A DNA stretch of 36,355 bases, taken from an uncultured Blautia sp. (lineage in GTDB: Bacteria; Bacillota; Clostridia; Lachnospirales; Lachnospiraceae). The stretch lies in contig CAMNNM010000004.1 of the NCBI GenBank assembly GCA_946545425.1, positions 1 to 36,355 of the forward strand, given 5' to 3'. Both the position numbers and the translations under genes were made by a program. The notes under the pieces are model-generated. The model was not told where the DNA came from. It was given only the letters and a program-made list of their open reading frames with translations, and did not search any database. Below, piece by piece: positions 5,624 to 36,355 of the stretch (the first letter of the stretch is position 1; each line of letters starts with the position of its first letter).

Positions 5624-5634
5624 ACAGTCAGTCC

Positions 5635-7038: not shown

Positions 7039-7089
7039 TTCGCGCCACCTCAGTCGTATGCTGTAATAATTTCATACATTTATATGATT

Positions 7090-7137
7090 ATTCAGCACCT
7101 ATAAGCCCGGAATGCTGAGCAGACCGGGGTGCTGAAT
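7090..7137. repeat. Intergenic hairpin, copy A (ATTCAGCACC...GGTGCTGAAT)
   Basis: 10-bp perfect inverted arms 7090-7099/7128-7137; shares ATTCAGC, GCCCGGAATGC and GCTGAAT with 31435-31485. Confidence 0.65.
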
Positions 7138-7151
7138 AAGCACAATAAATC

Positions 7152-7181
7152 ATTGTATTAATCTTATAATATTTGTAACAA
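7152..7181 (-). promoter_or_regulatory. Candidate sigma-70 promoter for the 5635..7038 gene
   Basis: On the minus strand TTGTTA (7181-7176), 18-nt spacer, TACAAT (7157-7152) in an AT-rich intergenic region upstream of the ATG at 7038. Confidence 0.45.
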
Positions 7182-7229
7182 AATATCAACATGATTTTTA
7201 AAAGCCGGGATTTCTATGACTAAAAGAGA

Positions 7230-7390
7230 CTGTGAAATAATCCGACGGGGACCGCTCCCGCTTGGTCCTCGCGCAGCGGCACATAAGAAAAACCGGACAT
7301 GTGTGATCCAGCGATTGTTCGCTGTTCCACACATGTCCGGTTTTTCAAGTGCCGGCGCTGCGGACGTCCCCTTACGGATTATTTTCACAG
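7230..7390. terminator. Long nested inverted repeat with a strong bidirectional terminator-like core
   Basis: Core AAAAACCGGACATGTGTG (7288-7305)/CACACATGTCCGGTTTTT (7328-7345), inner CAGCGA/TCGCTG; outer arms CTGTGAAATAATCCG (7230-7244)/CGGATTATTTTCACAG (7375-7390). Confidence 0.75.
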
Positions 7391-7406
7391 GCCACTTTTC
7401 TTCATA

Positions 7407-9263
7407 TTATGGCCAGATTTTTCTTCCGTGTTCGTCCGGTATGCCTGACAGACGGTAAAAGAAGGTATTGATCACGTCTCTCCATTCCCGGGCGTTCAGA
7501 AGCTGCAGGTTCATTCGTTCTGCCGCTTCCTGTGCATCCGGTTCGGGAAGTGAAAGGTCTGCGAGGGTTTTCTGCATCTTCTGCACCTCGTCGAAGCCTT
7601 CAAAATGATCGTCATAGATGCGCTGTATCAAGGTCCTTCCGTCCCGCATCCGCCAGGTGTACGGCAGTCTGTGGAAGAACAGGAGGAGCTCATCCGGACA
7701 GGAGGAAGAGTCCGAATAAAGCGCCTTCTGTTCTTCCGGATACTGTTCTGTCAGTCCGGTTCCCGTTTTCGTTCGGTCCGTCCCCACCGCGTCCCGGTCT
7801 GCCCGGGTATAGGTTCCCCAGACGTCAAATTCATATCCGTACGGGCTGGGTCCGTAATGGGTTTCCGGCCTCATCATCCAGTCGAGTCCCAGTGTTGCGG
7901 TATATTTTTCGTAAGCAGAACGGCTCTTCATGAGCATGTCCGTAAGCGCGTCCTCCTGCTCTGACGGCAGGTCATAGGTCTGCCTCACCCAGCTGCGCAC
8001 GATTTCCGCCGGATTCACACCAGGATTCCATGCAAAACGGCCATAGGCATACAGATTCAATGCGGCAAAGGGATGTCCTGTCCAGCAGGCGTCTCTTCCC
8101 AGATTGCCCACTGCCGCCACAGCGTGAATCCGTTCCGTACCAACGCTGTCAAAGATCTCACGCCACAGCGCCGGCATGGCAAACAGGTCGATCTGCTGCC
8201 CCGTGTATTCCTGGGCCAGCTGCAGTTCACAGCCAAGGTGTGTGTTTTTCATGCCATAAAAAAGCGGTGACGCCGGTTCTCTTACCTGAAAATCGAAGGG
8301 ACCGTATTTGACCTGCAGGATCACATTTTCATCAAACTGCCCGTCCAGCGGATGATACAGATCATAGGCCGCACAGGGTCTGTCTGTGGAGGCGTCCCTC
8401 CAGTCCTGGGTGCAGTTATAGACAAATGCTCTCCATACAACCACTCCGCCATATGGCGCGACCGAACGCGCCAGCATGTTGGCACCCTCAGGGTGCGTTC
8501 TTCCATAGGTATTCGGTCCCGGCCTGTGCTCCGAATCGGCTTTGATCAGATATCCCGCCAGATCCGGTATGGCTTTCCACGCCCGCTCTGCAAAATTTTT
8601 CCACCACAGACAGACGTTTTCATCCAGCGGATCCGCCGATACAAGCCCCCTCTGAAGGGGAAGCGAGAAATCCACCGACACCATCAGCCGTACCCCGAAA
8701 GGCCTCAGAAGATCCGCAAAGGCGGCTGTTTCATCCAGCATGCCGTCCAGCAGATCCTGCGCCGGCACATGTACGTTTACATTATTGATGCACAGTACAT
8801 TGATGCCCACCGACGCCAGCATCCGGCCAAGCTGCCGGATCCGGGCGGGATCATAGGAATAGCGGTCCGCCTCGAACCATATGGATCTGCCGGCGTAGCC
8901 CCTTTCCACACTTCCGTCCATGTTGTCCCAGGAATCCAGCATGCGGAGACTCCAGTAAGGAGCATTCAGTCCCTCCGGCACCGGTACCTTTTCTGTCACA
9001 GACCCGGCCGCTGCATAGGTTCCGTACAAGACGCCCTTACTGCCGCCTTTGATCTGTATTTCTGATCCACCGGACTTCAGAATGTAAGCTTCCTCCGGGA
9101 GAGTTTCGTCCAGGACAGGTTTGAGGCGCGGAGCATCTTCTTTCCGGTTCCGGTTATAGATTTCCGCCTCGGCCTCCGCCGTATGGAAAGGACAGTCTGT
9201 TCCGGCGGGGGCCGGCTCCCCGAATTCTCTCAGCCATGCATATCGTGTCTTCCAGTTGTTCAT
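7407..9263 (-). CDS. Alpha-glucuronidase, GH67 family
   Basis: SLRMLDSWDNMDGSVERGYAGRSIW, GYLIKADSEHRPGPNTYGRTHPEGANMLA, DENVILQVKYGPFDFQVREPASPLF, ELQLAQEYTGQQ, all GH67-type motifs. Confidence 0.9.
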   Translation of the reverse strand: MNNWKTRYAWLREFGEPAPAGTDCPFHTAEAEAEIYNRNRKEDAPRLKPVLDETLPEEAYILKSGGSEIQIKGGSKGVLYGTYAAAGSVTEKVPVPEGLNAPYWSLRMLDSWDNMDGSVERGYAGRSIWFEADRYSYDPARIRQLGRMLASVGINVLCINNVNVHVPAQDLLDGMLDETAAFADLLRPFGVRLMVSVDFSLPLQRGLVSADPLDENVCLWWKNFAERAWKAIPDLAGYLIKADSEHRPGPNTYGRTHPEGANMLARSVAPYGGVVVWRAFVYNCTQDWRDASTDRPCAAYDLYHPLDGQFDENVILQVKYGPFDFQVREPASPLFYGMKNTHLGCELQLAQEYTGQQIDLFAMPALWREIFDSVGTERIHAVAAVGNLGRDACWTGHPFAALNLYAYGRFAWNPGVNPAEIVRSWVRQTYDLPSEQEDALTDMLMKSRSAYEKYTATLGLDWMMRPETHYGPSPYGYEFDVWGTYTRADRDAVGTDRTKTGTGLTEQYPEEQKALYSDSSSCPDELLLFFHRLPYTWRMRDGRTLIQRIYDDHFEGFDEVQKMQKTLADLSLPEPDAQEAAERMNLQLLNAREWRDVINTFFYRLSGIPDEHGRKIWP

Positions 9264-21203: not shown

Positions 21204-22256
21204 TTAGATCTCTTCTCTCAGAATCTGAGGCAGTACGGACAGTCCGTACTCCGCCAGATGATGATCTTCCTCTCCGGTTCCTCCGCTTACGCCCAGTCCG
21301 CCGATGATCATTCCCTCATGGACCAGCGGCACTCCGCCGCCGAAGATAACGATCTTTCCGCCGTCCATCTTGTCCACGCCGTAGAATGTTCCGCCCGGTT
21401 GTGCGATACGGCTCAGCTCCATGGTGGACATCTTTACCGCGACGGAGGTATAGGCTTTTTTCATCGCCACATCAAAGCTTACCAGAAACGCGTCGTCCAT
21501 CACATGTACCGCGACAGGGTTTCCCTGCGGATTGCATACCGCGATCACGGCTGCTTTTCCTTCGCGCTTCGCTTCTTCCTCAATCTTTTCAATCAGGCGC
21601 TTCGCAATTTTCAGATTCATTCTGGCCGGAAGGCCGATCCGCTTCATGACCTCGGCCACCACGGCGTCGCTGGCAGATCCTGCTGCCGGAGCAGCGCTGT
21701 GTACTTCTGTCATCACTGGTTCGTCCTGATCCTTTCCCGTAAGTCTGCCTTCTCTTCTTGCATCCGTATATCTGGCAAGGATATACAGATAATCCGCAAG
21801 GCGGTTCAGGTACTGCCTGCTGCCCTGGTCGCTGCCGAATTTCACGGTTACGGAGGCAAGCGCCCGTTCTGCCCTGCGGCAGACTGTGCGTGCGATGTCC
21901 AGCTCGGCCGAAAGGCGGCAGCCGCCCGGAAGGATAAATTCCTTCGGTCTGTCAAACAGACCCTCCATCCGGTCGATCTCACTTTCCAGAATTTCGGTTT
22001 CATCCGGTTTGACCCGGTATTCCTTGTTATAAGGATCCGCGATCCCGGCCATAAGAAGGATCAGCGATCTCTGGACCTTTTCGAGGATCCGCACCGTATC
22101 GGGCTGATCCTTCAGCATAACCTTTACGAGACCAAGATGGCTGGTCAGCTCATCCACAGTCCCCACAAGATTGATCCGGTCATCCGCTTTGGATACATTC
22201 CCGGAACGGATCAGATTCGTGATCCCACGGTCCCCGTTTTTTGTATAGATACTCAT
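21204..22256 (-). CDS. pduO: PduO-like cobalamin adenosyltransferase with C-terminal HbpS/GlcG-like (DUF336) domain
   Basis: MSIYTKNGDRGITNLI...DDRINLVGTVDELTSHLG, FILPGGCRLSAELDIARTVCRRAERAL, RYLNRLADYLYILARY; C-terminal MNLKIAKRLIEKIEEEAKREGKAAVIAVCNPQGNPVAVHVMDDAFLVSFDVAMKKAYTSVAVKMST. Confidence 0.9.
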   Translation of the reverse strand: MSIYTKNGDRGITNLIRSGNVSKADDRINLVGTVDELTSHLGLVKVMLKDQPDTVRILEKVQRSLILLMAGIADPYNKEYRVKPDETEILESEIDRMEGLFDRPKEFILPGGCRLSAELDIARTVCRRAERALASVTVKFGSDQGSRQYLNRLADYLYILARYTDARREGRLTGKDQDEPVMTEVHSAAPAAGSASDAVVAEVMKRIGLPARMNLKIAKRLIEKIEEEAKREGKAAVIAVCNPQGNPVAVHVMDDAFLVSFDVAMKKAYTSVAVKMSTMELSRIAQPGGTFYGVDKMDGGKIVIFGGGVPLVHEGMIIGGLGVSGGTGEEDHHLAEYGLSVLPQILREEI

Positions 22257-22600
22257 TGGCTGCCTCCTGCGAGGGATCGGAACGGCATTTTTTTGACCGC
22301 CCTGGCGCTGTTCGCACCAAGATCCCGGCACTGCCGAAGCGTCGGCTGAATCAGTTCAAATACATTATGTCCTTTGGGAAGAGGCGACATCTGCATCGCG
22401 GCCTGCTGCCCCGTGATCCCGATTCCGCTTCCCAGCATGGACTCTGCTGCCGCCTGATGTGCCAGCTCGTCCACGTCTCCGTTTCCGGAAACGATCTGAA
22501 AAAGAACGCCCTCTTCTTCAATTCCCGCGCATATCTCTTTTAAAAGATCCTTGTCCGGATGATCCGTATAGATCATGATCGAAGGTCTGTTTACAATCAT
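22253..22600 (-). CDS. pduH: Diol/glycerol dehydratase reactivase small subunit (PduH-like)
   Basis: MIVNRPSIMIYTDHPDKDLLKEICAGIEEEGVLFQI...LGSGIGITGQQAAMQMSPLPKGHNVFEL; adjacent to PduG; ATGA overlaps on both sides. Confidence 0.88.
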   Translation of the reverse strand: MIVNRPSIMIYTDHPDKDLLKEICAGIEEEGVLFQIVSGNGDVDELAHQAAAESMLGSGIGITGQQAAMQMSPLPKGHNVFELIQPTLRQCRDLGANSARAVKKMPFRSLAGGSQ

Positions 22601-24420
22601 CTGTCTTTTCCCGCTCCCAGATACGAAAGAAGAAGTCCTGTGGCCACCGCGTTTCTCGGACCCTCTGTTCCCCGGATATTTCCGCGGCCGCACACGATCC
22701 GGTATTCCGAAAGTGCCTGCGTAAGCATTTCAGGGATCTCGAAATCCTCCGCCGAGCCTCCTACCAGCACCACGTTGGGAATCTTTCTCAGATCATGATC
22801 CGGCGCGACGGCAGTCAGCGCACGGATCGCATTGCGGACAAAGACCTTTCGTTTGGCATCCCGCCTGACATCCATGATTTTTTCCATCGTGATGTCTTCC
22901 TCGATCCGAAGCATCTCGCCCGGCGCAAGAAGAACGACTCTTCCAAAATATCTGGGATCAATGGATTCTTCAAAGAACCGCATGGCCCCGTTTTCCAGCC
23001 TCATATGGAAAAGGCTCTCCACCTTGCCCATAGGATATTTTTTGATCTGCTCCGCCGTCTGCCGGCTTTCAAGACCCAGCTCGGTACGGATCAGCATGGT
23101 GACCAGCTCTCCTGCGCCGGCCTGGTGCGTTGTACGTACCGTGCCGTCCGCTTCGAGGACAGCTGCGTCGGTGGATCCGCCGCCCATATCCAGGATGGCC
23201 AGCGGAAGCCTGGTGCCCGGGGTGGTCATCGCTCCGAGGGATGCCATGACAGCCTCCACGCCTGCAACGACAGCCTTGACATGAAGTTCTTCCTCCAGTC
23301 TTTCCGCTATCTTCTGCATGGGCAGATGTCTTGTCCTTACCATGGCCGCTATGCCGACTGCCTTCTCCATGCAGGTCTCGCCTGCAAGAGCGCCGGGGAT
23401 CGTCACGGGCGCAAGGGTATCGACCGCCAGAATATCCGTGATCCGGATCTCTTCTCCGCCGTCTCCGGCCACATCCGCCATGCCGGTTCTGATCCGTTTA
23501 AACATGTTTCCGACATTGGTATTGTTCTGTCCTTCGATGTCCCGGATCTCTCCGGCCGCAGAACGTTCCTCCATGATCCTGTCGGCGCCGGCGTCGATAT
23601 TGACGGTTCTGTCCGTATCTCCGTGAAAGGTGATCTCTCCGGCCGGCAGCACATTTTCCTGTATATTGCCGTGCGGAGTCCGTATCACCACAGCACTCCG
23701 GTTTCCGATCAGACTCTTTGCAATGGGCGTCACCATTCTGGTTTCCTCTGCGTTGAGCCCGAGAAGCGTCGCGATCCCATAGGGATTCGAAAGCATCCGG
23801 ATCGAAGTACCCGGAAGCGCCACCTCAATGGCAGCCATCTTTCCTTCCGGTATCTGCCGGATGTGCCGGACTTCGTCCACGATGGGGATCCGGATCGAAA
23901 GGCGGTTTTCCACAAGCACCGCTTCGTCCGCCTGAAGGATCAGACCTTTGATATCCAGCTCCGGGATGAACTGGTTCAGCCTCGAGGCAGCCTCCTCATA
24001 GGAGAATCTGCTGTCTACGGCAACAATATAGGGGACTCCCGGCTTTCCCCTCCACAGGTTTTCCAGAAAGATCAGTTCACCGACCGCTTCCCCCGCGCCT
24101 GCCGGCGTGGACGGATCGTGACCGATCATGGAGGATTCCGTGATGATCGTCTCTGTTATGGTCTCCATCGCGGTGTCTCCGATGACCGGAGCCGCTTCAT
24201 TCAGACGCACCAGAGAAAGGGCGGACAATGGAAGATTCACTGCACCGAGTGCATCCAGCAGGGCCTGCTTTATGCCGAATACGTTCGGCAGCGTCCCCTT
24301 GGTGCCCGTAGTCATGCGGGATGCCCCGGAGACAAACCGAAAAGACCCGTTTTCACGGATCTCCCCGATACAGACCTCTGTTGTCGAATTTCCGATATCA
24401 ACGCCCGCGATCAGTTTCAA
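22597..24420 (-). CDS. pduG: Diol dehydratase reactivase ATPase large subunit (PduG)
   Basis: MKLIAGVDIGNSTTEVCIGEI, LAILDMGGGSTDAAVLEADGTVRTTHQAGAGELVTMLI, NVVLVGGSAEDFEIPEML. Confidence 0.95.
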   Translation of the reverse strand: MKLIAGVDIGNSTTEVCIGEIRENGSFRFVSGASRMTTGTKGTLPNVFGIKQALLDALGAVNLPLSALSLVRLNEAAPVIGDTAMETITETIITESSMIGHDPSTPAGAGEAVGELIFLENLWRGKPGVPYIVAVDSRFSYEEAASRLNQFIPELDIKGLILQADEAVLVENRLSIRIPIVDEVRHIRQIPEGKMAAIEVALPGTSIRMLSNPYGIATLLGLNAEETRMVTPIAKSLIGNRSAVVIRTPHGNIQENVLPAGEITFHGDTDRTVNIDAGADRIMEERSAAGEIRDIEGQNNTNVGNMFKRIRTGMADVAGDGGEEIRITDILAVDTLAPVTIPGALAGETCMEKAVGIAAMVRTRHLPMQKIAERLEEELHVKAVVAGVEAVMASLGAMTTPGTRLPLAILDMGGGSTDAAVLEADGTVRTTHQAGAGELVTMLIRTELGLESRQTAEQIKKYPMGKVESLFHMRLENGAMRFFEESIDPRYFGRVVLLAPGEMLRIEEDITMEKIMDVRRDAKRKVFVRNAIRALTAVAPDHDLRKIPNVVLVGGSAEDFEIPEMLTQALSEYRIVCGRGNIRGTEGPRNAVATGLLLSYLGAGKDR

Positions 24421-24812
24421 GCAAGGATTCCTCTTTTCTCATATACTTCGGCGGCTTCCAGAACCAGCTTCGCGCAGTGCGGAGCATGATACTTTTCCAG
24501 AAGGTCCTGCGCCAGCATCAGCAGCTCCTTTTTGGTAGACCGGTTCGGCCGGAGCTGATTGTACATTTTCAGGATCACATCGTCCGGAACATTCACAAGC
24601 TCGGATGCCCGGTCAAAATTTGCCTTCATCTGGGGATTGTCATCTTCCAGAGCTACGTTGCCCTGCCGCTTCAGCATCTCGGAGGAGATCTTGATATCCT
24701 CTGAGCTTACATTTCCTCTTCTTACCTCTTCAAGGGTGATCTGCGACAGTTTTTTGCCGGTTCTGGAAGTGATCGTATCTGCTTCATATTTTCCCAGCGG
24801 ATATCTGCTCAT
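24417..24812 (-). CDS. pduE: Propanediol/diol dehydratase small subunit (PduE)
   Basis: MSRYPLGKYEADTITSRTGKKLSQITLEEVRRGNVSSEDIKIS...RPNRSTKKELLMLAQDLLEKY. Confidence 0.93.
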   Translation of the reverse strand: MSRYPLGKYEADTITSRTGKKLSQITLEEVRRGNVSSEDIKISSEMLKRQGNVALEDDNPQMKANFDRASELVNVPDDVILKMYNQLRPNRSTKKELLMLAQDLLEKYHAPHCAKLVLEAAEVYEKRGILA

Positions 24813-25492
24813 TGTACGCCCTCCCATTCGATCATGCCCTTTTCAGGATCCAGCTGCTCGGTCTCGATAATATGCATCAGCGCAGCCTTTACCTGGAACT
24901 TTGCACGTACCATCGGATCGTTTTCGCTCTCGATGGGCGTAACCCGCTCGCCTTTCGCATAGCGTGCGGCATTCCTGCCGATCTTGCGGTAGGTCTCGGG
25001 CGTCATGAGCGGCGCCTGGGGAAACAGCTCCAGATTGGTCAGGGGATAAAGATCCTTCTGATGAATGACCGTGGTCCCCTTGGACTGGATGCCGATTCCG
25101 ATGCCGGAGCCGGAAAGCTTTGCCGACTGAAGCGCCATGAAACCCACGTCCGAGGTATCCAGAACCTTGACGACCCTGGAGACCATGCCTTCCTCCTCGA
25201 TTCCGGCCCTTACGTTTCTCAGCACCTCATCGAGAGGGATTCCCGTTATCGTTGAACGGATTTCGGTCTGGAACGCGGCGCCGACACCGATCACGATTTC
25301 TTTCGGATCAGTTCCCTTTACCGCTTTGACAACGTTTGTATAATGATGCTTCGGCCGCATCCGGGTTCTTCCGGAAAGTGACTGCACGGATCTGTCCGCC
25401 GTTTTCGTTTCCGGAACGGAAGCACCCTGTTTCTGCAGCTGTTCAATAACTGCTCTGGTGATCGCCTGGACAAGCTGTTCGTTCATTTCCAT
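24809..25492 (-). CDS. pduD: Propanediol/diol dehydratase medium subunit (PduD), with N-terminal targeting helix
   Basis: EIVIGVGAAFQTEIRSTITGIPLDEVLRNVRAGIEEEGM...GSGIGIGIQSKGTTVIHQKDLYPLTNLELFPQAPL; N-terminal MNEQLVQAITRAVIEQLQKQGA. Confidence 0.94.
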   Translation of the reverse strand: MEMNEQLVQAITRAVIEQLQKQGASVPETKTADRSVQSLSGRTRMRPKHHYTNVVKAVKGTDPKEIVIGVGAAFQTEIRSTITGIPLDEVLRNVRAGIEEEGMVSRVVKVLDTSDVGFMALQSAKLSGSGIGIGIQSKGTTVIHQKDLYPLTNLELFPQAPLMTPETYRKIGRNAARYAKGERVTPIESENDPMVRAKFQVKAALMHIIETEQLDPEKGMIEWEGVQ

Positions 25493-25505
25493 TTTCTTGT
25501 CCTCC

Positions 25506-27170
25506 TTACAGATCGTTCACATCGATCCGGTGCGGGATCGCCTTGATCTCTTCCCACCGCTTTCCGGATACGCGGTATCCGGTTCCCGGCCCCAGATAAT
25601 CGTTGGGCGTGTTGACTCCGGACATTACCTGGAACTGATCGTCCAGGATCGCCGCGGTATGCATGTAGTCTCCGATCACACGCTGCTTGAGCATGTTCAG
25701 GATGCTTTCGGCCAGCTCCTCGAAGCCGGATTCCGCAAGCGCCCTTACCACGTCGACTCCCGTGATCCCGCGCTTCATCATGTCGTCCGCCGAAAGAAGG
25801 TCCGCTGCCACGTCACGTTTCAGGGTATCGTGGCTTCCATGGGCATAGGTTACGGCTTCCACCTGCTCATCCGTCACCTCAGTAAGCCCCAGGTATCGGA
25901 AGACGGCCTGAACCGCCTTTCCGGCAAGTCTGCGGACACGGATGACTTCCTCTTCCGTCACGGGCCGGAGCCCGCCGTCCACCTGCATGTCCCTCTGCAG
26001 GACATTATAATCGTCAAAGTCCTCCGCATCGAAATTCGATCCGGCGAACATGTTATCGTAATTGGGTTCTGCCGCATAGCCCGAGAAAATAAAATCCGTG
26101 CCGGGCATGAACTGCAGCATGGTTCTTGCCGTTCTTCTCATATCGGAATTGGAAAAGCTCTGATCATTGGAGGAAGCGCATTCCAGTCCCAGTAGCGCGG
26201 CGACCAGATTTTCTCCGATCACTTCCCGTATTCCGGAGGGCACGCTGGCCGTAACGCCGATGCAGCTGACCGATCCGTTCTGAATTCCCTGTGTTCCCGC
26301 GCCCTTTGTCATGAACAGACACCGGCACTCCAGATACAGCATGGACTTCTTTTCACTGGATCCCATCAGCACCTCGGAGCCCGAACCGGAAGTGAACCTC
26401 ACCTTCAGTCCGCGGGATGCGTAGGCCGAGCTTAAAAACGCCTTGGAATACGGCGTATCGTCTCCGTCGATGAAAACCTTCTCGGTTCCGTATACGGAAA
26501 GGGTCTCCGCATAGGTCGTAAGACCCCGGATTCCCAGCTCCAGCTCAGTCGCTTCCTCGACCGCGCACTGGGTGAGGACGCCTTTTCTTCCTGCCTGGGA
26601 ACCGATCAGAAGCGCGATCGCATTAAACGGAGCGTACCGGGCAACGCCGGTCGTGGTTTCCTCCTCGCTGAAGCCTCTGAGCGCTCCCTCTGCGGCGTCC
26701 GCCGCGATCTGAACCGGATCGTCCTTCAGATTGGTGATATGCGCCTGATTGCCGGGAACCTTTCTGGCCCTCATCTTCTGCATGCCCATCATCAGTTCGA
26801 CGACATTCAGATAATTGATGATCTCTGCCATCTTTGCAGGCGTGATCCCGGAGATGATCTTCAGGATCTCCTTTCGCGGAGTCACGATATCCACGATCTT
26901 TCTGGCGATCTCAAGCGAGGGGATTGCCATGGATTCCTCGGCGCGGTCCGCACGGATCGCGTAATCCGCGATAAACTGATCGATAAAGTCAAAATCCTCG
27001 CGCTTTTTTCCGTCCAGCTCGGTGATCACACCGTTTTCGACTTTAATCGAAGGCGCGGGATCATACGGACTCTTCATGGCGATGAATCCCATCTCGGGCC
27101 ATTCGTCGATAAATCCGTCTTTGTTTACAGCTCTTTTGTCCAGTGCCTCAATTCTTTTGGATCTCTTCAT
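25506..27170 (-). CDS. pduC: B12-dependent propanediol/glycerol dehydratase large subunit (PduC)
   Basis: MKRSKRIEALDKRAVNKDGFIDEWPEMGFIAMKSPYDP...RYAPFNAIALLIGSQAGRKGVLTQCAVEEATELELGIRGLTTYAETLSVYGTE; SD-like GGTGAT before ATG 27170. Confidence 0.96.
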   Translation of the reverse strand: MKRSKRIEALDKRAVNKDGFIDEWPEMGFIAMKSPYDPAPSIKVENGVITELDGKKREDFDFIDQFIADYAIRADRAEESMAIPSLEIARKIVDIVTPRKEILKIISGITPAKMAEIINYLNVVELMMGMQKMRARKVPGNQAHITNLKDDPVQIAADAAEGALRGFSEEETTTGVARYAPFNAIALLIGSQAGRKGVLTQCAVEEATELELGIRGLTTYAETLSVYGTEKVFIDGDDTPYSKAFLSSAYASRGLKVRFTSGSGSEVLMGSSEKKSMLYLECRCLFMTKGAGTQGIQNGSVSCIGVTASVPSGIREVIGENLVAALLGLECASSNDQSFSNSDMRRTARTMLQFMPGTDFIFSGYAAEPNYDNMFAGSNFDAEDFDDYNVLQRDMQVDGGLRPVTEEEVIRVRRLAGKAVQAVFRYLGLTEVTDEQVEAVTYAHGSHDTLKRDVAADLLSADDMMKRGITGVDVVRALAESGFEELAESILNMLKQRVIGDYMHTAAILDDQFQVMSGVNTPNDYLGPGTGYRVSGKRWEEIKAIPHRIDVNDL

Positions 27171-27191
27171 AACCAATCACCATAATCTGTC

Positions 27192-28343
27192 TCAGCCCTG
27201 CCAGAGCCTCGTATAAATGTTTATGATGTCTTCTTTTGTCGGAACTCTGGGATTTGCCGGAGTACAGCTGTCCCTCAGGGCAGCCTCGGCCATCCGGTCG
27301 ATGGCGCCGAAATATTTGTCCGGCGTGATCGTCCCCATCTCAGAGATCGTCATGGGTATATCCATCTCTTTCAGCATGAACTGGATCCAGTTCACCAGAG
27401 AATTGACGGACATTACTTTGTTATAGCTGGAAAGCCCCAGAATATGGGCTATATTGGAATACCGCTTTACTGCCGGAAGATATTCCTTCTGGCTGCGGCT
27501 TTTTTTATTGATATCGGCGTTAAATTCAACGACGTAGGGAAGGAGCATCGCATTCGCGCGGCCGTGGGGAACGTGGAAAACCGCTCCCAGCTGATGGGCC
27601 ATGCTGTGCGTGATGCCAAGCCCGGCTGTATTAAAGGACAGACCGGCAAGGCAGGAGGCGACATGCATTTTTCTTCTTGCATGCATGTCGTTGCCGTCCA
27701 GATAGGCTCTTAGAAGAAAAACGCCGCAGATCTCAATAGCTTTTTCCGCAAGCGCCGCCGAAAATTCATTATGATTGATACTCACATAGGATTCCAGAGC
27801 ATGTGTAAAGGTATCCATTCCGGTGTCCGCCGTAACAGAAGGCGGAACGGAACGCACCAGCTCGGCATCCAGGATCGCCTCGTCGGCGGTAAGCGAATCG
27901 GAGATCAGAGGGTACTTCACTTTTGCAGCCGTATCGTTGACAACCGCAAAGGAGGTGACCTCGGACCCCGTCCCGCTGGTAGTGGGTACTGCAATCAGTC
28001 CTACTTTTCCGTAGGGGTTGATCTTCAGTGCAAATTCACGGATGGCTTTCGAAGAATCGATCGCCGAACCGCCGCCCACGGCCACGACCGCGTCCGGCTG
28101 ATAGGCCAGAAATTTTTTCACGCCTTCTGCGATCTTGTCAACCGGCGCATCCGGCACCACATCGCTGAAAAGGTCGTACTCTTTGCCGGCGCTTTGAAGC
28201 GGCTCCGTGATCAGATCGATCATGCTGCTCTTCGCGATGAACGGATCCGTAATGATCAGGATTCTTTTATATGGAATTTCCTTAAGACGTCCCAGCGCAT
28301 TTTCACCAAAATGGATCGCTGTCCTCATCTCAAATGTTTTCAT
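27192..28343 (-). CDS. pduQ: Iron-containing alcohol dehydrogenase (PduQ-like 1-propanol dehydrogenase)
   Basis: VVAVGGGSAIDSSKAI, AVPTTSGTGSEVTSFAVV, GITHSMAHQLGAVFHVPHGRANAMLLP; ATG 28343 preferred for SD spacing (AGGAGCAGGAA). Confidence 0.88.
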   Translation of the reverse strand: MKTFEMRTAIHFGENALGRLKEIPYKRILIITDPFIAKSSMIDLITEPLQSAGKEYDLFSDVVPDAPVDKIAEGVKKFLAYQPDAVVAVGGGSAIDSSKAIREFALKINPYGKVGLIAVPTTSGTGSEVTSFAVVNDTAAKVKYPLISDSLTADEAILDAELVRSVPPSVTADTGMDTFTHALESYVSINHNEFSAALAEKAIEICGVFLLRAYLDGNDMHARRKMHVASCLAGLSFNTAGLGITHSMAHQLGAVFHVPHGRANAMLLPYVVEFNADINKKSRSQKEYLPAVKRYSNIAHILGLSSYNKVMSVNSLVNWIQFMLKEMDIPMTISEMGTITPDKYFGAIDRMAEAALRDSCTPANPRVPTKEDIINIYTRLWQG

Positions 28344-28384
28344 TTCCTGCTCCTGCATTTGGCCTGCTTACCTGTTATCCCGTA

Positions 28385-29164
28385 TCATGCCGGAGAATCC
28401 GGATACAGGCAGCGCACCTCATTTTGATCAAAATATTCCATCCAGCCGTTGTCAGGCCGTTTATCCGTGATCACCAGATCGACTCCTGCGGATTTCAGAC
28501 CTCCCGTAACCGCAAAGGCTGACTGATCAAATTTCGTACAGTCTGCCATAAGGACTCTTTTTCTGCTGGATTCCAGCATGGCCAGCTTGGTTCCCGAAAA
28601 GACTTCCTGAGACTCCATCATTCCCTGTATCCGGTTAATCGCCTTGCAGGATACAAAAGCCCAGTCCATATAAAAGGAACGGATCATCGATTCACATTTG
28701 CTTCCGTGAAAGCAAAGATAGCCTTTCTGTATCGCCCCGCCGGCCGCATAGACGGACCATCCGGTCACATCCCCCAGCTCGATCAGGATTTCTACGGAAT
28801 TTGTCACAATCGTGAGCTTTTTACGGTTTTTCAAAGCTCTGGCCAGAAAGATCGCCGTTGTGCTTGCGTCCAGAAAAAGATGATCCCCGTCGTTCACGAG
28901 GGAAGAAGCGATTTCTGCCATCTTCTGCTTGCCGGAAGCGTTTTTGTTTCTCCGGATATTGAATGGAAGCTCTATGGAAACATCCTCGTTCAGAACGGCG
29001 CCGCCGTAGCTTTTTACGGCAAACCCTTCTCTCTCCAGACGTTCCAGGTCTCTTCGGATCGTTTCCTCCGAAACCTCGTAAAACTGACTCAGTTCACTGA
29101 CAATTACCCTTTTTTCGCTGTGAAGCTTCTCCAGAATCTCTCCACGCCTCTCTGCTGCCAGCAT
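28385..29164 (-). CDS. DeoR family transcriptional regulator
   Basis: MLAAERRGEILEKLHSEKRVIVSELSQFYEVSEETIRRDLERLEREGFAVKSYGGAVL HTH; C-terminal DeoR sugar-phosphate sensor-type domain (DHLFLDASTTAIFLARAL). Confidence 0.93.
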   Translation of the reverse strand: MLAAERRGEILEKLHSEKRVIVSELSQFYEVSEETIRRDLERLEREGFAVKSYGGAVLNEDVSIELPFNIRRNKNASGKQKMAEIASSLVNDGDHLFLDASTTAIFLARALKNRKKLTIVTNSVEILIELGDVTGWSVYAAGGAIQKGYLCFHGSKCESMIRSFYMDWAFVSCKAINRIQGMMESQEVFSGTKLAMLESSRKRVLMADCTKFDQSAFAVTGGLKSAGVDLVITDKRPDNGWMEYFDQNEVRCLYPDSPA

Positions 29165-29201: not shown

Positions 29202-29750
29202 TTAAAGGATCGTATCCATCATTCTGCGGTCAGGATGCGCAATGACAGAGGAATCCAGATACATTCCCTTGGCTGCCACCAGCTCTTTCGCCCTGCGGAT
29301 CGACGCCTCCACGGCCGATACTTCGCCCGTGATCAGCATGTACGATTTTCCGCACATTCCTTTGGCCAGCCGAAGCTCGATCAGATCGACGATCGCTGTT
29401 TTTGCAGCCTGATCCGCGGCCTCGATCAGGGAAGCCACGTCGTAGGTTTCAAGGATTCCAAGGGCGCTGATCTCCTCCACATGGGTCGCCCCGTATATCG
29501 CCGGAAAGATCGACTCATGCGGATTGCCCAGCACAAAGCTGTCGATGCAGCTGGACTCATTGCTGTTGACGGCGGTTTCGACAGCCGCCTGTACCGCAGA
29601 AAGATCTCCTGTTATAATCGCAACATATTTACCCGGGCACACAGTCTGTGCCTCAATGATCTCGACTTCTGCGGTCTTGACCATCGCGTCCGCCGCGGTG
29701 ATCCCGGCTGCCGTAGTCTTAAATTCAATCATACCGATGGCTCTGCTCAT
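29202..29750 (-). CDS. pduT: Tandem-BMC-domain shell protein (PduT-like, BMC-T)
   Basis: Two BMC domains: SRAIGMIEFKTTAAGITAADAMVKTAEVEI and EEISALGILETYDVASLIEAADQAAKTA; Cys38 in TVCPGKY. Confidence 0.92.
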   Translation of the reverse strand: MSRAIGMIEFKTTAAGITAADAMVKTAEVEIIEAQTVCPGKYVAIITGDLSAVQAAVETAVNSNESSCIDSFVLGNPHESIFPAIYGATHVEEISALGILETYDVASLIEAADQAAKTAIVDLIELRLAKGMCGKSYMLITGEVSAVEASIRRAKELVAAKGMYLDSSVIAHPDRRMMDTIL

Positions 29751-29766
29751 GATCTGTACGTCCTTT

Positions 29767-31092
29767 CTATTCAGCTGCAATGACAATATGACGGTCTGTA
29801 ACCTCGGTGACTTTTCCGTCTATTGACGCGTGAATTCCGACACTGAGGCCCTGAGCAGGTTCAGCGATCATCTGTCCCCGCTTCACATGCTCTCCCGCCG
29901 AAACAACAGCATGGGCCGGAGCTCCGATATGCTGGCTGAGAAGGATTGTCACCTTCTTTACCGGGACAAGTCTTTCGTCAAGGGGTGCCTCTTTGTCGTA
30001 CTTCGAAAGTCCGAGTCTTGCCATCAGGCGTTCTTCCGGCACCTTTCTGTATTCCCGTGACTCCCGTACCGGAACGGCCTCCACTGCAGGCGGTTTTATG
30101 CCGCCTTTCCGAAGGCCGGCTTTCATGTCGGCCAGCAGCGTTCTGGGCGCCAGGCTCTGCGGACAGGAAAACATTTCGCATACGCCGCAGGAGCTGCAGA
30201 AGCTTGCATTGATATACGGATTCATATCCTGGAAATCCGCATTGGATGCAGCTCTCATGAATCTTGCAGGATCAATGGGATGTCCCAGCGCATGTCTCGG
30301 ACACAGATCCGTGCAGGTGTTGCACTGGCAGCAGATGGATGCCGCCCTCTTTAAATCTATAGAAGCTTTTCGATTCTTCTTTGTAACGATCGTATGATCC
30401 TTCGGGAGGACCAGGATCGCATTTGTCGTTTTCGTAACCGGATCGGATCCCGATCCGATCCTTCCCATCATCGGCCCGCCCACGAAATAGACAGGATCCT
30501 CGCAGGTCAATGCGCCTGCCTGTGCCACTGCCTCGTCAAGCGTCGCTCCAATGGGCATACGCACAGTAACCGGGTTGGACACTTCCGCCACGACAGAAAT
30601 GAATTTATCTTCCACCGGCTCATTGAATTCCACTGCGCGATATACATTAAACACCGTCTCCACATTGAACACGGCTACGCCCTGCTCTATGGGAAGACCG
30701 CCCGGCCGTACCACCCGTCCGGTTGCTTCATAAATAAGAACCACCTCGTCTCCCATCGGATATACTTCCTGGAGAAGATGGATCCTCATGTTCGGAAATT
30801 CTTCGATATGCTGTCTTAAGGCGTCAATGGTCTTTTTATAAGACTCCTTGATGCCGATGACCGCCTCTTTGGCTCCCACCGTTTCGGCGATCATATAAAA
30901 GGTTTTCATGATCTCATAGGCATGCTGTTCCAACACCTGCCTGTGAAGCTTCAGCAGAGGTTCGCATTCCGCGCAGTTCAGCAGAATAATCTCTGCTTTA
31001 TCTGTCAGCTTGGCGTAAGTAGGAAATCCGGCACCGCCGGCGCCGACCACACCGCACCTTTGTATTATATTCTGTAATTCCTTGATATCCAT
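29767..31092 (-). CDS. pduS: RnfC-like Fe-S flavoprotein (PduS-like)
   Basis: GVVGAGGAGFPTYAKL, NCAECEPLL, two 4Fe-4S motifs CCQCNTCTDLCPR and CSSCGVCEMFSCPQ. Confidence 0.93.
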   Translation of the reverse strand: MDIKELQNIIQRCGVVGAGGAGFPTYAKLTDKAEIILLNCAECEPLLKLHRQVLEQHAYEIMKTFYMIAETVGAKEAVIGIKESYKKTIDALRQHIEEFPNMRIHLLQEVYPMGDEVVLIYEATGRVVRPGGLPIEQGVAVFNVETVFNVYRAVEFNEPVEDKFISVVAEVSNPVTVRMPIGATLDEAVAQAGALTCEDPVYFVGGPMMGRIGSGSDPVTKTTNAILVLPKDHTIVTKKNRKASIDLKRAASICCQCNTCTDLCPRHALGHPIDPARFMRAASNADFQDMNPYINASFCSSCGVCEMFSCPQSLAPRTLLADMKAGLRKGGIKPPAVEAVPVRESREYRKVPEERLMARLGLSKYDKEAPLDERLVPVKKVTILLSQHIGAPAHAVVSAGEHVKRGQMIAEPAQGLSVGIHASIDGKVTEVTDRHIVIAAE

Positions 31093-31116: not shown

Positions 31117-31389
31117 TTATTCTTTGATCCAGTCCTGCCCGTCATCGACAATACCGACGATCGCCGCGTCCACCGGCGCATTGTCCATTCCGCAGCCTAT
31201 GCGGGCCGCGCTGCCCTCTGCGACCAGTACATACTCACCGATTCCCGCTCCGATGATGTCAATCGCGACAAGGCGTGCCTGATCCCCTTTCATATGATGG
31301 ATCGGCTCCACGATCATAAATTTGTTTCCGATAAGTTTTTCACTTTTTCTTGTGGAAACGATACTTCCCACTACCTTGCCCAAGAACAT
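31117..31389 (-). CDS. pduN: EutN/CcmL/PduN family BMC pentamer vertex protein
   Basis: MFLGKVVGSIVSTRKSEKLIGNKFMIVEP...LVAIDIIGAGIGEYVLVAEGSAARIG...PVDAAIVGIVD; SD GGAGGG. Confidence 0.93.
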   Translation of the reverse strand: MFLGKVVGSIVSTRKSEKLIGNKFMIVEPIHHMKGDQARLVAIDIIGAGIGEYVLVAEGSAARIGCGMDNAPVDAAIVGIVDDGQDWIKE

Positions 31390-31493: not shown

Positions 31494-32138
31494 TTATTTA
31501 ATAATGGTAACCGTATTTCCCGTTTTGATCTGCGCTGCGTTGGCTTCATCCGTATCGATGTGCATCTCAAGGGTAAAGCTCTCGTCCACGCGGATCTTGA
31601 CATGATTGAAGATAGTGCCGCGCTCATTGTCAGCCTTCACGGAAACAATATCTCCGTCCTTCACTCCGGCAGCTTCGGCGTCCTTCGGGGACATATGGAT
31701 ATGGCGCATCGCAACGATGCATCCTTCCTTCAGATACAGCGCGCCCTTCGGGCCTACCAGCGCCACTGCCGCGCTGCCCTTGATGTCGCCGGATTCGCGG
31801 ACCGGCACATTCATGCCCAGCTTGATCGCATCTGTTGCGGAAACCTCAACCTGCGACGCCTTGCGGACAGGTCCGAGGATCCGGACATTTTCAATTGCGC
31901 GAAGCTTGAGGCCCACGATGGTGACCGTTTCGTTCGATGCAAACTGACCGCCCATCAGGTCCTTTTTCTTCGTCAGCTGATATCCCGGTCCGAAAAGGAC
32001 CTCGACATGCTCCTGAGTAAGGTGCACGTGTCTTGCCGAAACACCGATCGGTACAATGAAGCCGGTGTCTTTTTCTTCATGGCTGCCGATTGCCTGAATT
32101 ACCATTCTGGTAATCTGTTCAATACTGCTTGCTTCCAA
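31494..32138 (-). CDS. pduL: Phosphate propanoyltransferase (PduL) with N-terminal targeting helix
   Basis: FIVPIGVSARHVHLTQEHVEVLFGPGYQLTKKKDLMGGQFASNETVTIVG, MRHIHMSPKDAEAAGV, EMHIDTDEANA; N-terminal SSIEQITRMVIQAIGS. Confidence 0.95.
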   Translation of the reverse strand: MEASSIEQITRMVIQAIGSHEEKDTGFIVPIGVSARHVHLTQEHVEVLFGPGYQLTKKKDLMGGQFASNETVTIVGLKLRAIENVRILGPVRKASQVEVSATDAIKLGMNVPVRESGDIKGSAAVALVGPKGALYLKEGCIVAMRHIHMSPKDAEAAGVKDGDIVSVKADNERGTIFNHVKIRVDESFTLEMHIDTDEANAAQIKTGNTVTIIK

Positions 32139-32173: not shown

Positions 32174-32452
32174 TTATTTCAGAACCGGAAGGATCTTCTC
32201 TACGTCATTGTGCGGTCTCGGGATTACATGAGTAGCGATCAGCTCGCCAAGTCTGGATGCTGCAGCAGATCCTGCCTCAACAGAAGACTTAACAGCGCCG
32301 ACATCGCCGCGGACCATGACAGTTACAAGTCCGGATCCGATCTTCTCGGTTCCGACAAGAACAACGTTTGCAGCCTTGCACATCTGGTCAGCTGCCTCGA
32401 TTGCTGCGGTAAGTCCTCTGGTCTCAACCATTCCCAATGCTTCCTGTGTCAT
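32174..32452 (-). CDS. BMC-H shell protein (PduA/PduJ-like)
   Basis: [70 protein letters not shown] places ATG at 32452. Confidence 0.95.
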
Positions 32453-32487
32453 GAATTTTTCCTCCTCATTCATAATGAAAATTGTTT

Positions 32488-32799
32488 TTATTTGGTGAAT
32501 TGATTTCTGAAATCTTTATCCCACCGGCTCCGGCTGATGTTTACGAGCCGTACGATCTCCTCGTGGGGGCTTGCGATGACCGCGTAGTTGACAGGTTTCT
32601 TTACTGCCTTGTGAGCAGCCGCCTCGACTGCTTCCGTTACGGCCGCCACGTCTCCTTCCACAATGATGGTTACCAATCGTCCGCCCAACCTGCGTTCCCA
32701 TGATACGAGACTGACGTCTCCCGCCTTGCACATGATGTCCAGGGCGTCCAGTGCGGCAACAACGCCGGAAATTTCAATAAATCCTAAAGAATTGCTCAT
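32488..32799 (-). CDS. Divergent BMC-H shell protein with C-terminal extension
   Basis: [58 protein letters not shown]...[16 protein letters not shown] then [17 protein letters not shown]. Confidence 0.9.
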
Positions 32800-32816
32800 G
32801 AGCGAACTCCCTTGTT

Positions 32817-33092
32817 TCAGATGGTCGGAAGGATCTTCTCCACATCGTTATGCGGTCTCGGAATTACGTGGGTAGCTACCAGCTCTCCGAGTCTTGAAGC
32901 CGCTGCGGATCCTGCTTCTACAGAAGCCTTTACAGCTCCGACATCTCCACGGACCATGACAGTCACCAGTCCGGATCCGATCTTCTCAGTTCCGATCAGA
33001 ACGACCTCTGCTGCTTTGGTCATGGCATCTGCCGCCTCGATGGCAGCGGTAAGTCCTCTGGTCTCGACCATTCCTAATGCTTCCTGTGACAT
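32817..33092 (-). CDS. BMC-H shell protein (PduA/PduJ-like), paralogue of 32174..32452
   Basis: [61 protein letters not shown]; about 90% identical by eye to 32174..32452. Confidence 0.95.
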
Positions 33093-33134
33093 GATCTTTG
33101 TCCTCCTGAAAAAAATAATATAATATGATTGACG

Positions 33135-33449
33135 CTATCGTTTGTCAAAAGCGCTGATCTTCAGCATCTTTTCCGTTCCCTCCTCGGGGTTCGGAATGAT
33201 GTAGTGCTGCACAATACCGGTCATGGCTGCGGCTTTCTGCATTCCTGCCTCCATGGCAGCCTCAACGTCCGCGACCGAACCGCGGTATTTGATGCAGACA
33301 AGAAGCGGAACCGGCAGAGCATCTGCATTTGCAGGTTTATTCTTATCAAACACTTCGAGGTGGACATTGGCGGCCTTGCAGCCGGCGTCTGCCGCACAGA
33401 AGGCGGTGACCAGTCCGTAAACCTCAAGAATTCCCACAGCTTCTGCCAT
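33135..33449 (-). CDS. BMC-H-like shell protein with insertion in the pore region
   Basis: MAEAVGILEVYGLVTAFCAADAGCKAANVHLEVFDKNKPANADALPVPLLVCIKYRGSVADVEAAMEAGMQKA: BMC fold signature with extra residues where KIGSG normally sits. Confidence 0.85.
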   Translation of the reverse strand: MAEAVGILEVYGLVTAFCAADAGCKAANVHLEVFDKNKPANADALPVPLLVCIKYRGSVADVEAAMEAGMQKAAAMTGIVQHYIIPNPEEGTEKMLKISAFDKR

Positions 33450-33465: not shown

Positions 33466-34701
33466 TTACTTGTTGATGTACGGCGGCAGGATAACGGCGA
33501 TCTTCAGACCCTTCATGGCAAGATTGGTCCTCAGCGCTTCGTTGATGTCCTCCAGCGGGAACTTATGTGTGATCAGCTCTGACATCGGAAGGCCGATTCC
33601 CTTTGCTCTTCTCAGGAAATCGAATGTCGTCGCGTAATCGCGGAGGGTGTAGACCCAGGATCCCACAAGGGAGATCTCTTTGGAGCAGAGATCGAAATGC
33701 GGATTGATGGTCGCGTCACCGCCGTTGATGAAGAAGCCAAGCTCACAAAGTCCGCCGCCGTTGCGGATGAACTTGTAGATGTTGGCATGTGCCTTCGGAT
33801 TGCCGGTGCACTGGAAACCGAAATCGGCCAGATGACCTCCGAACGCTTCCTTCACTGCGCCTGCAAGAGCCTCAATGCCCTGATGATCCGCAAAATTGAC
33901 GGATACGTTAGCGCCCATTCTCTTGGCAAAGGCAAGACGCTGCTCGTTGCCGTCCACTGCGCAGATATTCTCGATACCCATGGTGCGGAGCACTGCGATG
34001 CAGATCAGGCCGATGGGGCCGCAGCCCTGAACAACGACTCTGCTGTTGAAGCGGAGGATATTGGTGAGCTTTGCTCTCTCAACCGCATGAACAAGCACTG
34101 CGCACGGCTCGATGAGGATACGGGAATCCAGATCCAGATCGCTTACGTTGAAGAATGTGGAACCGAACCCGCCGCCGCGGATGAAAATGTAATCGGAGAA
34201 CCAGCCATTCAGATGAACGTCGTCATCCGGAAGAAGTCCGTATACGTCTGCTCCGCCTACGTTCTTTTTGTTCAGGTCGAACATGGTGATCTCGGGATCA
34301 TCCTTGAAGATCATGCAGGTAACGACCTTGTCGCCGACCTTGACCGGCTTGCCGGCGGTATCGGTCTTGACGTTCTTTCCCATCGCCACGATCTCGCCGG
34401 TGCCTTCATGTCCGAGGGCAACCGGGATCAGATCGAAGGGATCTCTCTTGAATTCGTGCGCGTCTGTTCCGCAGACGCCGCATCCTTCTACTCTGACAAG
34501 AATATCATCATCGCCAAGGGGCGGGATCGGATATTCTTTCACTTCAAAATGCTCTTTTTCCGTAAGAACCGCCACATGGGCTGTCTTCGGGATCGATCCG
34601 GGAGCAGCTGCGGCAACAGGTGCGGCAGCGGGTGCATTTCCGGCCATTCCGGAGAGGACCTGTCTGACGATCTCTTCAATATTTACACTGTTGATATCCA
34701 T
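33466..34701 (-). CDS. Zinc-binding MDR alcohol dehydrogenase with N-terminal targeting-helix-like extension
   Basis: GCGVCGTDAHEF, ALGHEGTGEIVAMGKNV, VVVQGCGPIGLICIAVLRTMG; N-terminal MDINSVNIEEIVRQVLSGMAGN followed by an Ala/Pro linker. Confidence 0.9.
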   Translation of the reverse strand: MDINSVNIEEIVRQVLSGMAGNAPAAAPVAAAAPGSIPKTAHVAVLTEKEHFEVKEYPIPPLGDDDILVRVEGCGVCGTDAHEFKRDPFDLIPVALGHEGTGEIVAMGKNVKTDTAGKPVKVGDKVVTCMIFKDDPEITMFDLNKKNVGGADVYGLLPDDDVHLNGWFSDYIFIRGGGFGSTFFNVSDLDLDSRILIEPCAVLVHAVERAKLTNILRFNSRVVVQGCGPIGLICIAVLRTMGIENICAVDGNEQRLAFAKRMGANVSVNFADHQGIEALAGAVKEAFGGHLADFGFQCTGNPKAHANIYKFIRNGGGLCELGFFINGGDATINPHFDLCSKEISLVGSWVYTLRDYATTFDFLRRAKGIGLPMSELITHKFPLEDINEALRTNLAMKGLKIAVILPPYINK

Positions 34702-34717: not shown

Positions 34718-36106
34718 TCAGCGAATGCAAAGCGCGTCGGACATGATGCAGTGTCTCTTCTTTACGAAGGAGCTGGCATCCGTAAGACCGTCGCCGGTAC
34801 GGCTTGCGATCGAGAAGGTGCAGTAGCTCTCTCCTCCGAAGCCCAGGGCCGCATAGGACGGGCCGTTCTTCACAAGGATCGTCGTATCGATTGCTTTCGC
34901 GTATCTCGTAATTCTGTCTACGTTTTTGGAATGAATATGTGCGGAATGATGATTGCCGTGTTCAAGCCATACGGCCTTCTCAAGCGCATCATCAAAGTCC
35001 TTCGCACGGACGACGCCGAGGATCGGCATCATCAGCTCGGTCGTGATCAGCGGATGCTCTTTTTCACCCTCGAAGACGATGCAGCGGATATTTGCCGGTG
35101 CATTGACTCCGATCATGGCAAGAAGCGCTTTTGCGCTGCGTCCGACGCACTTGCGGTTGAGCTTTCCGCCTGCCAGGCATACATTCACAAGCTTGTCCTG
35201 TTCCTCTTTGGATGCCAGGTAGCAGTCATTATCGTTGATCAGATAATGCATCAGCTCGTCCATTACGGAAGAAACACAGACGATTTCCTTCTCTGCGATG
35301 CAGGGAAGATTGTTATCGAAGGTACAGCCGTTGACAATGTCCCTGGCTGCCTTTTCGATGTCGGCGGTCTCGTCTACCAGTGCAGGCGGATTTCCCGCGC
35401 CGGCTCCGATGCCGCGCTTTCCGGATGACAGTACTGCGGTAACGACGCCCGGGCCGCCGGTAGCCACGATGAGCTGAATATCTTTATGCTTCATCATGAT
35501 GGAGCTGGTCTCCAGAGTCGGTTTTTCAACGGTAACCGCAATGTTGTCCGGACCGCCTCCCTCAAGGGAAGCTTCATTTACCAGATTGATGGCAAAGATC
35601 GTGGTCTTGGTAGCACCGGGATGCGGATTGAATACGACCGTATTTCCGGCTGCCAGCATTCCGATGGTATTGCAGAGAACCGTCTCGCTCGGATTGGTGC
35701 TGGGCGTGATGGCGCCGATGACGCCCCAGGGACCCATTTCGATCAGGGTAAGACCTCTGTCGCCCGAGAAGGCTCTGGTCGTGATGACCTCGGTTCCCGG
35801 TGTTTTGTCTGCTACCAGGTGATGCTTGATGATCTTGTCGCCGACGTTGCCCATTCCCGTCTCATCGACGCCCATGCGGGCAAGGATTTCGGCGTTTTCT
35901 CTGATTTTCCTGCGGATAATGCCAATGATCTTCTCACGTTGATCCATGGACATCCTTTTCACGACAGTCTCGGCCTTTTTTGCTGCCTCGATGGCGTCGT
36001 TCATATCTTTAAAGATACCATGTTTTCCGCCGGGAGCATCGGCAATCTGCATTTTAGCCATGACTTCCTGTACAATTTCCTGTACCATGCTGTCACTGAT
36101 CGGCAT
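34718..36106 (-). CDS. pduP: CoA-acylating propionaldehyde dehydrogenase (PduP-like) with N-terminal targeting helix
   Basis: GPWGVIGAITPSTNPSETVLCNTIGMLAAGNTVVFNPHPGA, NGCTFDNNLPCIAEKEIVCV; N-terminal ISDSMVQEIVQEVMAKMQ; SD AAAGGAGG best spaced for ATG 36106. Confidence 0.94.
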   Translation of the reverse strand: MPISDSMVQEIVQEVMAKMQIADAPGGKHGIFKDMNDAIEAAKKAETVVKRMSMDQREKIIGIIRRKIRENAEILARMGVDETGMGNVGDKIIKHHLVADKTPGTEVITTRAFSGDRGLTLIEMGPWGVIGAITPSTNPSETVLCNTIGMLAAGNTVVFNPHPGATKTTIFAINLVNEASLEGGGPDNIAVTVEKPTLETSSIMMKHKDIQLIVATGGPGVVTAVLSSGKRGIGAGAGNPPALVDETADIEKAARDIVNGCTFDNNLPCIAEKEIVCVSSVMDELMHYLINDNDCYLASKEEQDKLVNVCLAGGKLNRKCVGRSAKALLAMIGVNAPANIRCIVFEGEKEHPLITTELMMPILGVVRAKDFDDALEKAVWLEHGNHHSAHIHSKNVDRITRYAKAIDTTILVKNGPSYAALGFGGESYCTFSIASRTGDGLTDASSFVKKRHCIMSDALCIR

Positions 36107-36126
36107 AAACTGCATCCTCCTTTGAT

Positions 36127-36355
36127 TTATTTAAGGCCAAGCTGAGCCATAACCTTTTTGGTGATGTCTGCTACGAGATCGGCATCCGCCGCTTTTGCAG
36201 AAGCGCTGTGTCCGCATTCGCCGCCGCAGTTATGGCAGTTCATGCCGTCCTTGTTCTGGCAGAGGTTTGCCGGATGTTTGCCCGGAAGGCCCATCTGTCT
36301 GCGGATCTGATACAGTCTCTGAACGGTAGCCTTGTCGAATTCCTTCGGGCCGCCG
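36127..36355 (-). CDS. C-terminal fragment of a BMC cargo protein, possibly class II (fuculose-phosphate-type) aldolase, ending in a targeting-like helix
   Basis: Manual translation to the stop at 36127: GGPKEFDKATVQRLYQIRRQMGLPGKHPANLCQNKDGMNCHNCGGECGHSASAKAADADLVADITKKVMAQLGLK*. Truncated by the window edge; the aldolase identity is inferred. Confidence 0.5.
   Translation of the reverse strand, partial: GGPKEFDKATVQRLYQIRRQMGLPGKHPANLCQNKDGMNCHNCGGECGHSASAKAADADLVADITKKVMAQLGLK

Follow-up and report, generated by a model that had tools for sequence, protein, structure and literature searches.

The window, which is the whole stretch of DNA analysed and comprises 36,355 nucleotides, is the complete contig C4 of the draft assembly G000 (224 contigs, 88.6% complete). 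It carries a fucose/rhamnose-type BMC operon with a B12-dependent diol dehydratase, in which the gene for a class II aldolase precedes that for a CoA-acylating aldehyde dehydrogenase (AldDH). All features of the operon lie on the minus strand:

36127-36355, minus: 3' end of a class II (fuculose/rhamnulose-phosphate type) aldolase gene, 75 residues plus stop (translation, homologues)
36271-36354, minus: end of the aldolase domain and following helix, GGPKEFDKATVQRLYQIRRQMGLPGKHP (alignment; model helix 200-212)
36208-36267, minus: conserved Cys/His cluster NLCQNKDGMNCHNCGGECGH, C-x7-C-x2-C-x3-C (alignment columns; both Cys codons used)
36190-36207, minus: variable Ala/Ser linker, SASAKA (variable alignment columns; residues 213-249 of the L022 model at pLDDT <50)
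36130-36189, minus: putative C-terminal encapsulation-peptide helix, ADADLVADITKKVMAQLGLK (cargo-peptide similarity, model helix 251-264, shell-gene association)
34718-36115, minus: CoA-acylating AldDH of the PduP/EutE type, N-terminal encapsulation peptide (family models, peptide comparison)
33466-34701, minus: zinc alcohol dehydrogenase (Zn-ADH), N-terminal encapsulation-peptide-like helix (family models, peptide comparison)
32174-33449, minus: four BMC-H shell genes
31494-32138, minus: PduL phosphotransacylase, N-terminal encapsulation peptide (family models, peptide comparison)
31117-31389, minus: EutN/CcmL pentamer shell gene
29202-31092, minus: PduS-like Fe-S flavoprotein and PduT-like BMC-T shell gene
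28385-29164, minus: DeoR-family regulator
27192-28358, minus: iron alcohol dehydrogenase (Fe-ADH), lactaldehyde-reductase-like
22253-27176, minus: B12-dependent diol dehydratase PduCDE and reactivase PduGH

Read from the aldolase, the gene order is AldDH, Zn-ADH, four BMC-H, PduL, EutN/CcmL, PduS, PduT, DeoR, Fe-ADH, PduC, PduD, PduE, PduG and PduH. The part from the aldolase to PduT recurs across those relatives that offer enough sequence (80 genome loci), and a EutS-like BMC-H gene usually lies directly upstream of the aldolase in relatives. The first ATG of the AldDH gene, at 36115, lies immediately next to a ribosome-binding site, AAAGGAGG (36100-36130, minus strand); the true start of this gene is probably the ATG at 36106 (MPISDSMVQEIVQEVMAKM).

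The minus-strand frame at 36128-36354 translates to GGPKEFDKATVQRLYQIRRQMGLPGKHPANLCQNKDGMNCHNCGGECGHSASAKAADADLVADITKKVMAQLGLK, with the last 75 residues of the aldolase encoded at 36130-36354 and the TAA stop codon of the same frame at 36127-36129 (minus strand), so that the coordinates and peptides given for 36127-36355 by an earlier, sequence-only reading are right. Because the window is a whole contig of a draft assembly, the gene is cut short by the assembly and not biologically; its missing 5' part was absent from the rest of the assembly when this was searched with a full-length relative. The nearest relatives of the tail (80 relatives, with the tail as query) come from Blautia and other Lachnospiraceae assemblies, a scan of viral contigs gave no relatives of the aldolase, and plasmid matches to it are less than 60% identical. 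Two near-relative assemblies, that of the window (36223-36355) and that containing locus L098 (7650-7783), both break within this aldolase gene, perhaps because this gene is common to related strains.

As the window gene covers only the region behind the core of the PF00596 domain, the domain was assigned through relatives, in which the full-length protein has about 268 residues. PF00596 is found in the full-length relative L024 with 168.8 bits (cut-off 22.2, E 1.5e-49), the best solved relatives are fuculose-phosphate aldolases, and the fold of an AlphaFold2 model of the relative L022 matches that of E. coli FucA. In addition, an alignment of 53 relatives shows E78, H97, H99 and H160, at positions outside the truncated window gene, to be invariant; these presumably correspond to the residues that serve FucA as metal ligands and acid. 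The aldolase identity suggested by the sequence-only reading is therefore upheld by the presence of PF00596 in close full-length homologues. None of the NCBIfam equivalog cut-offs is reached by the aldolase, and consequently it is the operon and not the protein that points to a particular sugar phosphate: we infer that L-fuculose/L-rhamnulose-1-phosphate is the substrate.

The route from fuculose or rhamnulose phosphate through lactaldehyde and 1,2-propanediol to propionaldehyde has been published (PMC3557285, PMC6325248), and the window operon agrees with it, a B12 dehydratase replacing the glycyl radical enzyme (GRE). Among described systems, the GRM5 fucose/rhamnose BMC (Clostridium phytofermentans Cphy_1177, Roseburia inulinivorans) shares, by description, an aldolase adjoining a PduP-type AldDH and a zinc alcohol dehydrogenase, together with BMC-H genes, PduS/PduT and a DeoR regulator; the GRM5 gene set of class II aldolase, PduS, PduT, DeoR and zinc alcohol dehydrogenase is present in the window. 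In contrast to GRM5, the window operon contains the B12-dependent PduCDE-GH and there is no glycyl radical enzyme on the contig: neither a glycyl radical diol dehydratase nor its activase occurs in the operon, read as far as the aldolase at the contig end, and the only GRE that the assembly yielded is on contig C76, which has no shell genes. Of the 136 shell-associated loci, as far as the locus DNA examined extends, 21 include PduC-type genes, and seven of these 21, which are Blautia-type, seem by a simple motif test only to contain a GRE too.

It may also be observed that a single BMC operon of the window unites a B12-dependent diol dehydratase (22253-27176, minus) and a class II aldolase (36127-36355, minus). 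By description, a B12-dependent propanediol dehydratase likewise stands beside a fucose/rhamnose BMC in Clostridium methylpentosum, and the presence of both in one species has been termed surprising (PMC6620236). The PVM BMC, again compared by description, resembles the window in having a class II aldolase as its signature enzyme for L-fucose and L-rhamnose (PMC4207490), but belongs to other phyla, differs in gene order and has a lactaldehyde route that involves no diol dehydratase.

The tail of the aldolase ends in the segment ADADLVADITKKVMAQLGLK, which aligns without gaps with the N-terminal peptides of AldDH (SMVQEIVQEVMAKMQI), PduL (ASSIEQITRMVIQAIG), PduD (NEQLVQAITRAVIEQL) and Zn-ADH. 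Its summed score against the cargo N-termini (PduE included) is 123, compared with a maximum of 100 in 2,000 shuffles and of 96 in 2,996 22-mers sampled from other window genes. In the L022 model, which is of moderate confidence with a mean pLDDT of 68.5 (about 68 in the helix and below 50 in the tail), a separate helix at residues 251-264 follows a disordered stretch with pLDDT below 50. Alignment, score and model together thus describe an amphipathic terminal helix of 15-20 residues behind a flexible linker, as is typical of encapsulation peptides.

The distribution of this helix was followed with the catalytic domain and the helix behind it alone as query, in order to lessen the bias of the tail query, in 299 genomes of the family and 399 of the phylum; together with the loci from the tail query, the matches comprise 212 different aldolases, the gene surroundings of which were read. 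By rule, the helix is present in 134 of the 136 aldolases near shell genes, or in 135 when L222, where it was missed by the rule, is counted by eye; the other failure, L098, is cut by its contig. Among the 76 aldolases that have no shell genes nearby the helix is absent in 68. Of the eight exceptions, L027 and L055 lie on short contigs, L178 and L179 have shell genes about 9 kb away, and L285 has BMC genes on another contig, while for L193, L245 and L282 the assembly contains no BMC domain, L105, the tail of which was missed by the rule, being a fourth such case (four genomes, G688, G033, G221 and G090, combine an aldolase whose tail is peptide-like with an assembly in which no BMC domain was found). 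Apart from these four, the helix accompanies shell-adjacent cargo and is absent from cytosolic relatives, which is the distribution of an encapsulation peptide. The association of helix and shell genes survives phylogenetic correction (p about 0.008): on a catalytic-domain tree of 94 representatives, seven to eight of nine independent pairs agree and none disagrees (median p 0.008).

The pair L178 and L180 is identical in the catalytic domain up to the tail, and L180 has lost helix and shell genes and retains a remnant of a BMC domain directly downstream of the aldolase; a similar deletion is present in L190. In both L180 and L190 the aldolase domain is open and intact without the helix, and both appear to be decayed BMC loci, the helix-less domain having been fused by a deletion to what is left of a shell gene. 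As independent cases of helix decay they are weakened, the DNA pointing in each to a single deletion that removed helix and shell genes together, and they are therefore weaker evidence than separate losses would be. In L114 and L278 there are two aldolase copies per BMC locus, the second of which has the helix and lacks the Cys cluster described below.

On these grounds the aldolase is, with a probability of roughly 0.9, a BMC cargo protein with a C-terminal encapsulation peptide, and the C-terminal helix of about 18 residues is most likely what loads it into the BMC, its physical encapsulation being what we infer. The sequence-only reading had recognised the encapsulation-peptide pattern at the C-terminus, and sequence, position, predicted structure and shell-gene association all support it; its further statement that BMC class II aldolases carry C-terminal targeting peptides agrees with publication of such a peptide for the ACI type (PMC8217296). 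The ACI BMC aldolase of Acidobacteria is, as here, a PF00596 protein with a C-terminal encapsulation peptide, although the locus make-up differs, no Cys tail is mentioned for ACI and the likeness is by description (PMC8217296). The same aldolase family also occurs in the PVM and GRM5 BMC types (PMC8217296), and an aldolase of this kind, a BMC cargo with a C-terminal encapsulation peptide, is already a known kind of protein.

Between the enzyme and the linker lies the Cys/His cluster. In 92 BMC-type relatives H219 is kept in all 92, C224 in 90, C232 in 89, H233 in 90 and C235 in 90, so that three Cys and two His are retained in about 97% or more of the homologues, whereas the fourth Cys, C239, is less constant (75/92) and the linker behind the cluster varies freely. 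The conserved set is HPxxLC-x7-CHxC plus this less constant fourth Cys. A Cys cluster noted from the sequence alone as C-x2-C-x3-C-x-H is therefore real and conserved, but its last His is not conserved in the 92 relatives and a conserved upstream Cys had been missed, and that exact motif is rejected as a functional unit. Both TGC and TGT encode Cys of the cluster, which indicates that conservation acts at the level of the protein. The tail alone gave no match in family models or in a PDB sequence search, no family model or solved structure covers the Cys tail, and no description of the cluster was found in the literature outside subscription papers; it may be the only new part of the protein. 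A C-terminal tetracysteine extension with a proposed Fe-S cluster is known from PduK (PMC6325248), but PduK is a shell protein with an unrelated domain for which no encapsulation peptide is mentioned (PMC6325248).

Judged from these residues, the cluster would somewhat more probably than otherwise bind a metal (Zn or Fe-S), and the metal-binding or redox-sensitive role that the sequence-only reading proposed for it may hold. The chances are about even that it belongs to the enzyme itself, as a structural Zn or Fe-S site that closes the C-terminal region of the aldolase and possibly predates encapsulation. Seven relatives that have no shell genes keep the Cys cluster and have no helix: five of them (L103, L108, L109, L113 and L257) terminate with CYKCxxCFW, and the other two (L106 and L115) have similar clusters. 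Distant BMC aldolases carry C-x2-C-x2-C at the same position, and Cys spaced in this way are common where Fe-S or Zn is bound. Against an origin in the enzyme stands the fact that 66 of the 76 relatives without shell genes lack three Cys, and that the region is covered by no structure. This assignment is compatible with the preferred reading of the aldolase as encapsulated cargo and specifies its Cys part.

It is unlikely, if less so than the oligomeric role discussed below, that the cluster is instead part of a targeting or assembly signal which, linked by metal or disulfide, fixes the aldolase together with the helix to the shell or to PduS/PduT. At least three Cys are found in 131 of the 136 tails near shell genes as against 10 of the 76 others, about six of nine independent pairs agree and none disagrees (median p 0.03), and PduS and PduT are present in most such loci. 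However, the helix occurs with no Cys in L116 and in the second copy of both L114 and L278, all in full BMC loci, L185 and L191 have the helix and one Cys in theirs, and the seven shell-less relatives show the converse. A requirement of the cluster for the peptide or for a BMC locus is rejected on the former variants; with helix lacking Cys in BMC loci and Cys lacking helix in shell-less relatives, the cluster is, as far as the comparison of tails indicates, associated with encapsulation and not part of the required targeting signal. Slighter still is the chance that it gives BMC-associated class II aldolases a conserved Zn or Fe-S centre at the base of the targeting tail, which would sense redox state or metal and control loading or activity of the compartment's first enzyme. 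Very improbable, finally, is that the C-terminal helix serves oligomerisation or stability and not targeting: a predicted helix could pack on another subunit, but this one tracks shell genes and not the catalytic domain, which occurs in identical form with and without it (L178, L180), and resembles the peptides of unrelated enzymes of the operon.

Under the preferred reading of the aldolase as BMC cargo, a class II L-fuculose/L-rhamnulose-1-phosphate enzyme would be taken up by a fucose/rhamnose BMC through its amphipathic C-terminal helix of about 18 residues, which, on its flexible linker, would dock with the shell or the cargo core in the manner of the N-terminal peptides of AldDH, Zn-ADH, PduL and PduD. 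The encapsulated aldolase would cleave the sugar phosphate to DHAP and lactaldehyde, the latter would be reduced to 1,2-propanediol, and PduCDE would dehydrate this to propionaldehyde for PduP/PduL. Situated between enzyme and linker, the Cys cluster would most likely bind Zn or Fe-S and stiffen or regulate the base of the tail, and would be unnecessary for targeting.

The analysis supports the uptake of the aldolase as cargo by fucose/rhamnose BMCs in gut Lachnospiraceae, and the comparison separates the parts of the tail, the helix tracking the shell and the Cys cluster doing so less strictly. Naturally occurring forms that have the helix but no Cys, that have Cys but no helix, or that are identical enzymes differing in the presence of the helix offer ready constructs with which targeting and metal binding could be told apart.

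A second, small BMC-like cluster is present in the same assembly (L300, contig C81 of G000, 5112-8250), with genes named by eye as a DapA/NanA-like lyase, a zinc alcohol dehydrogenase, two BMC-H, a cupin and a GntR regulator, and we know of no described BMC type with this make-up. The zinc alcohol dehydrogenase of this cluster has an encapsulation-peptide-like N-terminus, MDIKIDDIVKTVISVANARI.
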